Assembly: GCA_021740625.1 (NCBI GenBank)
Contig: JAIOZK010000033.1
Coordinates: forward strand, 1 to 37,721
Direction: 5' to 3'
DNA from: Bacteroidales bacterium
GTDB taxonomy: Bacteria; Bacteroidota; Bacteroidia; Bacteroidales; JAIOZK01
DNA: 37,721 nucleotides
Shown here: positions 21,400 to 28,063 of the stretch, piece by piece
Layout: every line of letters starts with the position of its first letter
Numbering within the stretch: the first letter of the stretch is position 1
The notes under the pieces: generated by a model
Told to the model about the DNA's origin: nothing
The model's database searches: none
The model's input: only the letters and a program-made list of their open reading frames with translations
Made by a program: the position numbers and the translations under genes

Positions 21400-22167
21400 T
21401 CAAACCTTGTTTTTCTTTTTGACTTCCAATTCTTCAGGGCGCTGCTGAGCAGGAACCATAAAGAGGTCGAGGGGATATTTCTTAATAATGTACCACAGGA
21501 TTTTAAAAAGGTTTCTCGACTGTCTGAAGGTAATGGATCTTGATTTAATGGCCACGATCAGGGCCAGGGTAAAACTGACAAAGAAGTTGAGGAATCCGAT
21601 AACCATAAGACTAATTACTACCGGGATCAGCATTTGCAGGCTTATGTTGAAATTCAATCCATAGAGTGCCATGCCCACATTGGCAGCGGAAAAAGTGATA
21701 TGCCTGAATTCAAGCGGTATCCCGAAAATATATCCAACTGTGCTTATGGATCCGAAAAGAATACCCAGGACGATATACCCGGATATGTTGCCCAGATTCA
21801 TCCCGATATAAGTACTGAATTTGTCAAGCCTTGATGAACCCATCAGTTTTCTGAGGAAGTTGTTTTCTGCCAGCCGGCGGGGTATTTCTCCATAACGGAT
21901 CCTGTTGTCATAATAACCCGATGCCAGTCCGGCCACAAAAAGTGCCATTCCGGCAAGGGCAGCATAAATAAAAGAAGGGCTCTGAATGGGATGAAGTTCA
22001 TCAAATAAGTATAGGGAAAGACTTTTGTCAGCGATCAAGTTATTGAAAACCAACAGGAACAACCAGCTAAAAAAAATGGCTGAAGGGACTGCTGCCAGAA
22101 GGTTCCCCAGGAAAGACACAAACTGGCTCCTGTTTACCCTTACGATCAGGAAGGCAAGTCGCTTCAA
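21400..22167 (-). CDS. SpecificRecomb-family membrane protein, C-terminal part (downstream frame)
   Basis: The 255 codons from a TTG at 22167 encode the C-terminal third of the PF10136 'site-specific recombinase' (Gcr-like) family: RSQFVSFLGN, LFVAGLASGYYDNRIRYG, the GNISGYIVLGILFGS helix, then FRHITFSAANVGMALYG and FFVSFTLALIVA. At least four membrane helices are present. By itself it lacks the N-terminal two-thirds encoded just upstream. Its frame is -1 relative to the upstream frame and is open back to 22191. There is no Shine-Dalgarno before the TTG. It is therefore most likely joined to the upstream frame by a -1 shift, or the gene is disrupted by loss of one A. Named recombinase, but recombination by this family is poorly supported. 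Confidence 0.75.
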   Translation of the reverse strand: MKRLAFLIVRVNRSQFVSFLGNLLAAVPSAIFFSWLFLLVFNNLIADKSLSLYLFDELHPIQSPSFIYAALAGMALFVAGLASGYYDNRIRYGEIPRRLAENNFLRKLMGSSRLDKFSTYIGMNLGNISGYIVLGILFGSISTVGYIFGIPLEFRHITFSAANVGMALYGLNFNISLQMLIPVVISLMVIGFLNFFVSFTLALIVAIKSRSITFRQSRNLFKILWYIIKKYPLDLFMVPAQQRPEELEVKKKNKV

Positions 22168-23414
22168 TGCAATCGTATAGGTTTCATCAGGTTTTTTTCC
22201 AGGCTGCCTGCAATGGTGGAGGCCGTCATGGCCGGCTGGGTAGTTGCCAGGATCGATCGGGTAAAAAAGATCAGAACAAATGCAAATGTATAGTTGAGGC
22301 TCTGCACCACTGCATAACCGAAGGGTGAAAACTCAACCTGGTTCAGCAGTATTTTTGTCAATGCAAAAAAAGCCACGATAATACCACCTTTCAGGCTTTT
22401 GAACAGGAACTTTCCGAATTCTTTCCGCCCGGTGGCTATGTAGGAAACACCTGTTCTGGCTGCATGTTCTACAACCTGAAAGGCGAGCAGGTCCACATTA
22501 TCTCTCAGGTGCTTGCTGATGCTGTTTTTCTGGTTTTCAGATTTTATCAGTACCTTGAAAAAGCTTACCGTTGTATGACAGAACTTTTGGGTTTCATTCT
22601 GATGGATCAAAAGCAACAAGAGTCGAAGCCTTTCAATCTGCTGGTTCAACCTCCTGATCAGGAAGGTTAGTCTCAGGCTCGTTCCAAACTTGTTTTTATT
22701 TTTCCTGAGGAACCTTATGCTTTCTTCACATTGGTTGAGGATGACAAGGATATGCTTGTAGTCTTCATTTTCAATATCAGTAGTTTCATTAAAGTTATCA
22801 ATGTAAATGGTAACTTCTTTGTTTTGCTGCAGAAATGGGGAGTTGATCTCATCGAGCTGGGGCATTTTGTTGGTAATCTCGGATTCAGTTCCCAGGGCAG
22901 AGATCCGGTGAGAAAGAATTTGTATGGAACTGATCAGGCGATTGAAATTCGTATCCTCTTTATCTTGTTTTTTAAAATGCTGAAGCACACCAATTTGACT
23001 GATCAGTTCTTCCCATAGATTATCGGGTATGGCCTCTATCCACTTGTAATCGTTTGATCTGTAAAAAACCTGGTTGAGCAGCCTGCGGATATCCTTTTCA
23101 TTTTCCACGCTGGGCAGGATGCGATGTTTGACTTTGTTATAAAGCTCATATGAAAAACCTTTCAATGACATGATGCCTGTTTCTACAAACAGGTGAACCG
23201 TATCATAAGCTGAAAACAGGTTTTTGATGTAAGTACCCAATGCCGCCCGGTAGTCGGGATTTTTTTTGATCAGGTCAATAAGCTGGGAAATTTGTCTGGC
23301 TGCAAGATCATAATTTTTGATCTTTTCTGGCCGGATGATCCCGACAAGCTCGTAAAGGTGAAACGGATTGCGTTTTTCCTGATCATTGTATATTGCCCGC
23401 AGTATCTCTTCCAT
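22164..23414 (-). CDS. SpecificRecomb-family protein, N-terminal part (upstream frame)
   Basis: A 416-codon frame. Residues 1-325 are mostly helical and charged (for example IRFLRKNKNKFGTSLRLTFL at about 234), followed by two membrane helices near 340-390. The family signature region FAFVLIFFTRSILATTQPAM occurs at about 375-394. It stops eight codons after a GAA AAA AAC run, whereas homologues continue through RSQF and further membrane helices. The missing part lies in the -1 frame immediately downstream; joined at codon 408 the product would be about 671 aa, the usual family length. Last gene in the long minus-strand block, 33 bases after the sugar-dehydrogenase lipoprotein gene. Confidence 0.8.
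   Translation of the reverse strand: MEEILRAIYNDQEKRNPFHLYELVGIIRPEKIKNYDLAARQISQLIDLIKKNPDYRAALGTYIKNLFSAYDTVHLFVETGIMSLKGFSYELYNKVKHRILPSVENEKDIRRLLNQVFYRSNDYKWIEAIPDNLWEELISQIGVLQHFKKQDKEDTNFNRLISSIQILSHRISALGTESEITNKMPQLDEINSPFLQQNKEVTIYIDNFNETTDIENEDYKHILVILNQCEESIRFLRKNKNKFGTSLRLTFLIRRLNQQIERLRLLLLLIHQNETQKFCHTTVSFFKVLIKSENQKNSISKHLRDNVDLLAFQVVEHAARTGVSYIATGRKEFGKFLFKSLKGGIIVAFFALTKILLNQVEFSPFGYAVVQSLNYTFAFVLIFFTRSILATTQPAMTASTIAGSLEKNLMKPIRLH
22191..22197 (-). other. A-AAA-AAC slippery heptamer at a frame junction
   Basis: On the minus strand the upstream frame reads GAA AAA AAC at codons 406-408, so the heptamer A-AAA-AAC is in the zero-frame phase (X XXY YYZ) required for -1 ribosomal frameshifting. 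After a -1 slip, reading continues CCT GAT GAA ACC and stays open into the downstream SpecificRecomb frame. A real loss of one A (eight to seven) would give the same pattern. No clear downstream stem-loop was found by eye. Confidence 0.55.
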
Positions 23415-26156: not shown

Positions 26157-27071
26157 TTACTTGATCATTTCATCCAACTTCTCCCGTGATTTCTTCAAAC
26201 CATTCTTTTTTTTCTCAAAACCTTTCCATGGATCCTTTTTGCTTCCCAACCGACGGAAGATATTGTTATGATTATATTTTTGGGAATGGAGGTCTTTGTG
26301 GTTCAACTCTTCCCAATCCAGCGGCGTTGCAACCGGTGCGCCTTTTCTGGCTCTTAAGGAATAAGGTGCCACTGCAGTAGCTCCGTGAGAATTTCGCATG
26401 TAATCGAGGAACAATCTTCCTTTCCTTTTATTCTTGCGTGTTTCTATCGTGTACTTATCGGGTTCGCGATTGGCCAGCAGATTGGCTATATCTTTTGCAA
26501 ATTCCCTAACTTCATTAAAAACTGCTTTTTCATCAAGAGGCAAAACCACATGCAGACCCTTTGAACCCGTGGTCATCAGGAAAGCATTCAGTTCAAGTTC
26601 TTCGAACAAATTTTTAAAGTCCCTGGCGCATTGCCTTACAACTTCAAATTTACCTTCCGGAGGATCCAGATCGTAGATCATTTTATCTGGATAATTCAAA
26701 TTGTCTTTTTTGCTTAAAAATACATGCGGGGTGATCGTAGCCTGGTTGACAATATAAAGCAAGCTTGCTTCTGAATTACAATTCACGAATTCCTGTTCAT
26801 CCTGCCCTGCTTTCTTAACTTTTACAGTAATTGTATCCATCCAGTCAGGAAAATAATCCGGTTCTTCCTTCTGGTAAAAATCCTTTCCGTCAATACCGTC
26901 AGGATAGCGATGCAGCATCATCGGCCGGTCTTTGGTATAGGGCAGGATATATCCCGATATTTTCTGATAATACTCCACCAGGTCTTTTTTCGTTAGATTT
27001 TCATCCTGAAAGATCAACTTTTGGGGATTCGATAGTTCTATTTTATGTCCATTGGCCTTGACGATTGTCAT
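26157..27071 (-). CDS. LigD-type primase-polymerase (PolDom)
   Basis: A 304-aa archaeo-eukaryotic-primase-type polymerase, the stand-alone counterpart of the LigD polymerase domain that fills gaps during nonhomologous end joining. Metal ligands D134 and D136 lie in YDLDPPEG and the third aspartate is D223 in LFLDYMRN; S170 and H174 in GSKGLHVV complete the nucleotide site. KDFYQKEEPDYFPDW is the conserved N-terminal block. The C-terminal basic tail (KDPWKGFEKKKNGLKKS) may bind DNA. The start overlaps the ligase stop by four bases. Length is full for the single domain. Confidence 0.93.
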   Translation of the reverse strand: MTIVKANGHKIELSNPQKLIFQDENLTKKDLVEYYQKISGYILPYTKDRPMMLHRYPDGIDGKDFYQKEEPDYFPDWMDTITVKVKKAGQDEQEFVNCNSEASLLYIVNQATITPHVFLSKKDNLNYPDKMIYDLDPPEGKFEVVRQCARDFKNLFEELELNAFLMTTGSKGLHVVLPLDEKAVFNEVREFAKDIANLLANREPDKYTIETRKNKRKGRLFLDYMRNSHGATAVAPYSLRARKGAPVATPLDWEELNHKDLHSQKYNHNNIFRRLGSKKDPWKGFEKKKNGLKKSREKLDEMIK

Positions 27072-28063
27072 GATCTGGGTTTCTCCTTTCTTACATCTTT
27101 TGCTTTTTTATCATCCCTTAAACCGAGAAATGAAGGATGCCGGAGTTTGTTATCCGAAGTCCATTCGGTGAACCGGAACTCTCCTACAAGAAACGGTTTC
27201 AGCCAGGTAGCCTCCCTGTAGCCGGGATCATCTTCATCGAAAGGTGGCTTTTTCTGTTCAAGTGGTTTCATCTTATCGTGCAGGTTCTTCAGGGTGTTAT
27301 CATCATAGCCCGTACCCACCTTACCGGCATGTTTGAGTTTGCCTTTTTCATAATAGCCTACGATTAGCGCACCAAAATGGCTTCTCGATCCATGCGGTTG
27401 AGTGTATCCACAGATAACAAGCTCCTGCTGGTTCTCACATTTGAATTTAAGCCATTTTTTTGATCGCTTGTGCATATACCTGCTGTTACCCTCTTTGGCA
27501 ATGATGCCTTCCCATCCTTTCCGGCAGGCTTCTTCCAGGAACCTTTCCCCTTCTTTGTTGCGATGGGGCGTGTATCTTATGTTATCATGGCGAAAGTGGA
27601 CTACTTTTTTCAACAGAGTTTTCCGGTTTTTTAAACTTAAACTTGACAGATCATGGCCATTCAGGTAAATGATGTCAAACACATAATAAAACACCTCGAC
27701 TTCCATATCGGGATCTTTGCTGTGCATCCTGGGTTGAAGCTTTGAAAAGGAAGTAACATTCCCGTCGAAGGCAACAATCTCTCCATCGATGATGAAATCA
27801 TGTTCCTGTCCTTTCAGGCCTTCTTCAATTTCAGGATATTGATGGTTTTTCTTTTTCCTGTTGCGCGACATCAGCCGCACTTCTTGTCCTTTTTTAAACG
27901 CCAGGCAACGTTCACCATCCAGTTTGCGTTCATAGATCCAGTTTTCTTTTGAAAACCTTTTATCGGTTAAAGTTGCCAGCATGGGAACGGTCCAGTCGGG
28001 CTGGTCTTTTTTGTGGAGGGTTTCCCTGTTTTCTTGTGGTAATATGTCGAAAATTGTATTCAT
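27068..28063 (-). CDS. ATP-dependent DNA ligase (LigD ligase domain, stand-alone)
   Basis: A 331-aa ATP-dependent ligase of the LigD/LigC group. The adenylated lysine is K47 in YERKLDGERC. Further nucleotidyltransferase motifs are IIDGEIVAFDG (motif III), WEGIIAKEGNS (motif IV) and WLKFKC (motif V). The OB-fold part follows (FGALIVGYYEKGKLKHAGKV). No phosphoesterase or polymerase domain is fused; these are separate genes directly up- and downstream. It would seal double-strand breaks with Ku. No Ku gene is visible in this window. Its stop overlaps the polymerase start. Confidence 0.94.
   Translation of the reverse strand: MNTIFDILPQENRETLHKKDQPDWTVPMLATLTDKRFSKENWIYERKLDGERCLAFKKGQEVRLMSRNRKKKNHQYPEIEEGLKGQEHDFIIDGEIVAFDGNVTSFSKLQPRMHSKDPDMEVEVFYYVFDIIYLNGHDLSSLSLKNRKTLLKKVVHFRHDNIRYTPHRNKEGERFLEEACRKGWEGIIAKEGNSRYMHKRSKKWLKFKCENQQELVICGYTQPHGSRSHFGALIVGYYEKGKLKHAGKVGTGYDDNTLKNLHDKMKPLEQKKPPFDEDDPGYREATWLKPFLVGEFRFTEWTSDNKLRHPSFLGLRDDKKAKDVRKEKPRS

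Follow-up and report, generated by a model that had tools for sequence, protein, structure and literature searches.

In the single draft assembly studied here, a PF10136 gene on the minus strand is interrupted at a tract of seven A's, which leaves two reading frames, and we consider it very probable (about 0.92) that a full-length gene lost its frame through a one-base change in this poly-A tract, either by mutation or by an error in the consensus, and that no built-in signal is involved. The window, by which we mean the whole stretch of DNA that was analysed (37,721 nucleotides), makes up the entire contig C7 of a draft genome (52 contigs, 4.0 Mb) and has a GC content of about 43%. The first-pass annotation described frames of 416 and 255 codons as consecutive parts of one PF10136 protein, and the profile matches bear this out. 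The N-terminal frame corresponds to positions 6-395 of the 639 in the PF10136 profile (356.4-357.8 bits) and the C-terminal frame to positions 402-638 of 639 (245.7-248.7 bits), the cut-off being 24.6 bits in both cases. Together the two halves cover nearly the whole model, above the family cut-off, and the sum of their scores (356.4 + 248.7 bits) is close to the 620.7 bits of the full gene in G001, a relative from the same genus. In the organism's own genome no PF10136 matches were found beyond these two halves, and the single open frame that is usual in PF10136 relatives is absent. The coordinates are collected in Table 1.

Table 1. Features of the split PF10136 gene (positions in the window)
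Feature	Position	Strand	Remarks
N-terminal frame of the split PF10136 gene	22164..23414	minus	416 codons; begins with ATG, ends with TGA
C-terminal frame, -1 relative to the N-terminal frame	21400..22167	minus	255 aa if the TTG at 22167 is the start
Run of seven A's (A7) at the junction	22192..22198	minus	eight A's and one frame in same-genus G001
Zero-phase heptamer A_AAA_AAC	22191..22197	minus	formed by the A tract and the C that follows
Four-base overlap (TTGA) between the N-frame stop and a putative TTG restart	22164..22167	minus	
Predicted hairpin, 8 nt 3' of the heptamer	22136..22182	minus	-13.1 kcal/mol

The sequence at the junction, GGAAAAAAACCTGATGAAACC (22180-22200, minus strand), occurs only once in the window. 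In the zero frame the junction region is read as CTG GAA AAA AAC CTG ATG AAA CCT ATA CGA TTG CAT TGA, with 408 codons through GAA AAA AAC and eight further codons before the TGA, which makes a total of 416. From the slip point (CCT GAT GAA ACC) the -1 frame runs for 263 codons to its stop, and it is also open for 47 codons upstream of the slip point, so that a -1 shift would give a joined length of 408 + 263 = 671 codons. Re-reading of 22191-22197 confirmed what had been noted about this site, namely, a zero-phase A-AAA-AAC eight codons before the stop, a downstream frame at -1 that is open from CCT GAT GAA ACC, and a joined product of about 671 aa. The description of the overlap as TTGA with a TTG start lacking a Shine-Dalgarno sequence also stands, as no Shine-Dalgarno-like run was seen by eye in the 20 bases preceding the TTG.

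The relative that carries most of the argument is G001, the metagenome-assembled genome of Bacteroidales bacterium isolate Tobar14m-G11, which was the only same-genus genome met among the 60 relatives searched and the order sample. Its PF10136 gene is a single frame with 690 codons open, which gives 684 aa when started at the ATG used here, and at the site of the junction it reads CTG GAG AAA AAA AAG GAC GAA ACC, with an A8 tract, in frame. Of the two explanations offered by the first-pass annotation, programmed frameshifting or the loss of one A from an A8 tract, this supports the second, as G001 has the eight A's and reads in one frame. The change was probably a loss in our organism. The break was seen in this assembly only, with one same-genus genome compared.

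A wider alignment contained 61 PF10136 loci from 61 genomes, among the matches listed, drawn from 60 relatives and from samples of 393 order, 395 class, and 395 phylum genomes, sets that overlap. One open frame crosses the junction in all 61 aligned relatives and the out-of-frame junction is found in none of the 61 (both among the matches listed), and the linker between the two halves varies among relatives in both sequence and length. Within the compared region, a run of at least seven A's is present in 3 of the 61, again among the matches listed. Zero-phase A_AAA_AAC occurs in one of them (L008), nine codons further downstream, and in none at the junction, while A_AAA_AAG occurs in two, one being G001, in phase within its A8 tract (counts among the matches listed). 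In-frame relatives without a slippery site, which had been named in advance as pointing to a sequencing error or a private mutation, number 59 of 61 if either heptamer anywhere counts and L008 is set apart, and 58 of 61 have neither heptamer in the compared region when L008 is counted (among the matches listed). The comparison of orthologues proposed by the first-pass annotation gave an answer with two sides: G001 has A8 and all 61 relatives read in one frame, but G001 keeps an in-phase A_AAA_AAG (among the matches listed). The frame junction and its heptamer are not conserved, and the sister species has a different heptamer at the same place. In G001 the zero-phase A_AAA_AAG lies at L002:2668-2682, where a -1 slip would append 63 residues.

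The alignment was made without the own-genome loci L001, L004, and L005, the end fragment L006 from G041, the duplicate L037, and 20 further own-genome stretches (L042-L061). Other genomes lie outside it: G276, G075, G989, G928, and G922 have long single frames according to the tables; G368, G418, G877, and G1105:C20 have partial matches, the G418:C90 piece holding one TAA; and G270, G442, and G962 fall under the cut-off. An in-frame TAA in G420 was considered as a possible break and rejected, since it is the normal end of the G420 gene frame. A scan of contigs for a second allele of this species found none and returned one relative record, that of G001, own-genome records possibly having been omitted. 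The distribution of PF10136 is patchy, with a match in 7 of 393 genomes of the order sample, 37 of 395 of the class sample, and 38 of 395 of the phylum sample, the own genome included.

The lost A could have its origin in a recent slippage mutation in the sampled population or in a consensus error in the draft contig. To see how the assembly behaves elsewhere, 51 kb of the G001 contig were compared with the window. Forty-seven open stretches match, two of them in more than one frame, and these two are the PF10136 gene and the antisense shadow of it. The frame agrees with G001 in ten collinear neighbours (23.4-37.6 kb), and the PF10136 split is the sole frame break in the 16 kb collinear with G001; the left 21 kb of the window has no counterpart in the compared G001 stretches. 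A second screen looked for adjacent same-strand ORF pairs with a homopolymer of at least six within reach, and by design it detects only pairs in which the ORFs have at least 80 codons. It gave 25 such pairs (13 + 12) in 773 kb, the PF10136 gene included. No clear second break was found among the 24 other pairs in these 773 kb, and in no case were the partners consecutive parts of one Pfam family; in 5 of the 24, which could still be split genes, one partner is without a Pfam or NCBIfam match at the thresholds used (L047 13595, L055 8469, L093 508, L098 14288, and L100 111). Two pairs with a shared family, L093 (BPD_transp_1) and L057 (cytochrome domains), were rejected as split genes, each partner carrying the domain by itself. 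Another of the 24, the neighbouring ligase/Prim-Pol pair at 26157-28063, whose frames overlap by 4 bases and which has an A6 run, was suspected of being a second break but is taken to be a natural gene pair, since G001 keeps the two frames apart in the same way. The domains encoded there (minus strand), a LigD-type ligase and a primase-polymerase, belong to two genes, and matches were found only in G001 among the four genomes searched. Another overlap was seen in the own genome at L043:755-7212 (contig C2), where a 104-aa frame resembling acylphosphatase shares 4 bases with a 2048-aa frame that carries laminin-G and secretion-tail domains.

With a sole break in the collinear 16 kb and no clear second case in 773 kb, a systematic homopolymer error of the assembly is unlikely. 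Homopolymer breaks look rare in this assembly, so a one-off event must be assumed, and we rate an isolated slip in the consensus about as likely as a genuine recent mutation. A one-base frame break in an A tract is an ordinary event. For the singleton frame breaks of the GeneTack survey (PMC3711429), a like situation is described, with a private break, halves that match one family, and no conserved frameshift site; unlike those singletons, the A tract at our break happens to form a shift heptamer. The age of the break also bears on this. Compared with G001, pN/pS is 0.249 in the N part (405 codons), 0.267 in the C part (259 codons), and 0.222 in a neighbour gene, values that say little about the recent past because synonymous sites are saturated. 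In their distances to six outgroups, the window and G001 are close in both parts. For the C part, four of the six are slightly more distant from the window than from G001 and two are nearer to the window, and the largest excess, to G041, is 147/261 differences for the window versus 139/264 for G001. At columns conserved at 95% or more, 42 of 45 residues are kept, and at the remaining three G001 and G041 also depart from the conserved residue. The downstream half is without clear decay, and this suggests that the break is recent or is not in the organism at all.

Our preferred explanation would thus run as follows. A single full-length PF10136 gene, whose product is probably a membrane protein to judge from hydropathy, probably lost one A from a tract of eight that lies within a Glu-Lys stretch of the variable linker, and the heptamer would be a by-product of the shortened tract, without being a conserved signal. 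A real allele would yield mainly the N-terminal part of 416 residues. In that case a minor amount of joined protein might be made by ribosomal or RNA-polymerase slippage, and a minor amount of the C part might come from a restart at the TTG.

An addition to this explanation, which does not compete with it and which we regard as improbable, is a genuine frameshift allele with leaky rescue through slippage of RNA polymerase or the ribosome on the A tract. The undecayed C part would fit such a rescue, and there is a precedent, as slippage rescue has been proposed for the poly-A frameshifts of the insect endosymbiont Blochmannia, whose genes carry single indels in homopolymer tracts (PMC3017870). 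The cases are alike in that a single poly-A indel disrupts a gene that is otherwise intact. The scale differs: Blochmannia has four to eight such genes and more than 100 coding poly-A tracts of at least nine, whereas here a tract of only A7 is involved and one case was seen, in a 4.0-Mb genome. In a large share of bacterial genomes, selection against slippage-prone A/T runs can be seen from a length of nine nucleotides (PMC1088944), and our A7 is under that length of about nine, although the same source notes that the length varies by organism and that shorter runs may slip in some bacteria. Moreover, A7 and A8 runs are common in the genes of this genome (202 and 55, the latter 26 and 29 in the two own-genome samples), and a recent mutation or an error accounts equally well for the lack of decay.

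A tolerated split, with each half translated on its own through stop-restart at TTGA and the two then associating in the membrane, is quite unlikely. The four-base overlap is suited to it, and the split falls in a linker that differs in length and sequence between relatives and is flanked in G001 by hydrophobic segments on either side. The C half contains four strongly hydrophobic segments. The window's own N part, however, has no segment over the same threshold, the TTG start is without a Shine-Dalgarno-like run as judged by eye, and the split is found in 0 of 61 relatives (among the matches listed). The PF10136 family is labelled 'site-specific recombinase' (SpecificRecomb), a name that looks doubtful. 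The N half has a partial match, below the cut-off, to the formate/nitrite transporter family; no NCBIfam matches were found for either half or for the G001 protein, and a search for a solved structural relative of the G001 protein found none (best E 0.39).

Programmed -1 frameshifting of the dnaX type and the IS type forms a known family. If it operated here, a shift at A_AAA_AAC would yield the full-length protein and the 416-residue form would be a second product. We consider this very unlikely. The gene does resemble those systems in having a zero-phase X_XXY_YYZ heptamer, in the correct phase, and a long open -1 frame (47 codons upstream and 263 downstream of the slip), and the undecayed C part and the in-phase A_AAA_AAG of G001 at the same place would be compatible with recoding. 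It is unlike them in that the junction is unconserved, no significant stimulatory hairpin was found in the stretches folded, the A-site codon is a poor one by the E. coli data of PMC4066793, and relatives read in one frame. All 61 relatives, G001 among them, have the gene in one frame, and A_AAA_AAC is present in only 1 of 61, nine codons downstream (among the matches listed). The heptamer is also frequent in the own genome: in two sets totalling 773 kb, about a fifth of the genome, we counted 77 zero-phase A_AAA_AAC in 232,877 codons (40 + 37 in 112,887 + 119,990). By chance, about 0.02 would be expected in some 55 codons such as the frame overlap here, but this small expectation does not point to design, because G001 has A8 and a tract one base shorter gives the break and the heptamer together. 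The heptamer is ordinary in this genome, and no special cause is needed for its coincidence with the frame break. Given a junction that occurs in 0 of 61 relatives (among the matches listed) and a heptamer this common, the suggestion of programmed frameshifting is not upheld.

A spacing of 8 nt from the heptamer fits a frameshift stimulator, and a hairpin is predicted at this distance. Its folding energy of -13.1 kcal/mol compares with a shuffle mean of -9.69 (z, -1.52), 17 of 200 shuffles being as stable, and it is not predicted in G001, where the corresponding sequence folds differently. The longer downstream stretch (z, -0.55) and the upstream stretch (z, 0.46) were also folded, and upstream of the slip only a bare AGG was seen by eye as a Shine-Dalgarno candidate. 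In Escherichia coli, according to PMC4066793, high -1 shifting requires an all-purine or all-pyrimidine A-site codon, AAC is a poor A-site codon for such shifting, and without a stimulator the efficiency of the three best heptamers is about 0.3%. The same paper calls one A_AAA_AAC cluster of IS elements proven, its stimulator not being established, so weak shifting may take place at our site. Some frameshifting is likewise possible in view of the weak hairpin at 8 nt and the in-phase A_AAA_AAG of G001. Extending this to a recoding point shared by the genus, with the short N form made by default, the full-length membrane protein made by a -1 slip at A_AAA_AAC, and A_AAA_AAG serving in the A8 tract of the sister species, is just as improbable. 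A phase-variable switch, in which the length of the A tract turns the gene on or off, has hardly any likelihood either: the tract is A7 here versus A8 in G001, but A8 runs are frequent in own-genome genes (26 and 29 in the two samples), A7 or longer is found in the region of only 3 of 61 relatives (among the matches listed), and a tract of A7 or A8 is short for a contingency locus.

We know of no earlier report of frameshifting in the PF10136 family, and a search for frameshifting under PF10136, SpecificRecomb, or 'site-specific recombinase Gcr' found no report by title or abstract opening, in a search that left the subscription literature mostly outside. If frameshifting were shown, it would be without known precedent in this family. 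The loss of one A from such a tract can create a frame break and a perfect-looking slippery heptamer together; they therefore do not count as two separate lines of evidence for recoding, and this calls for caution.
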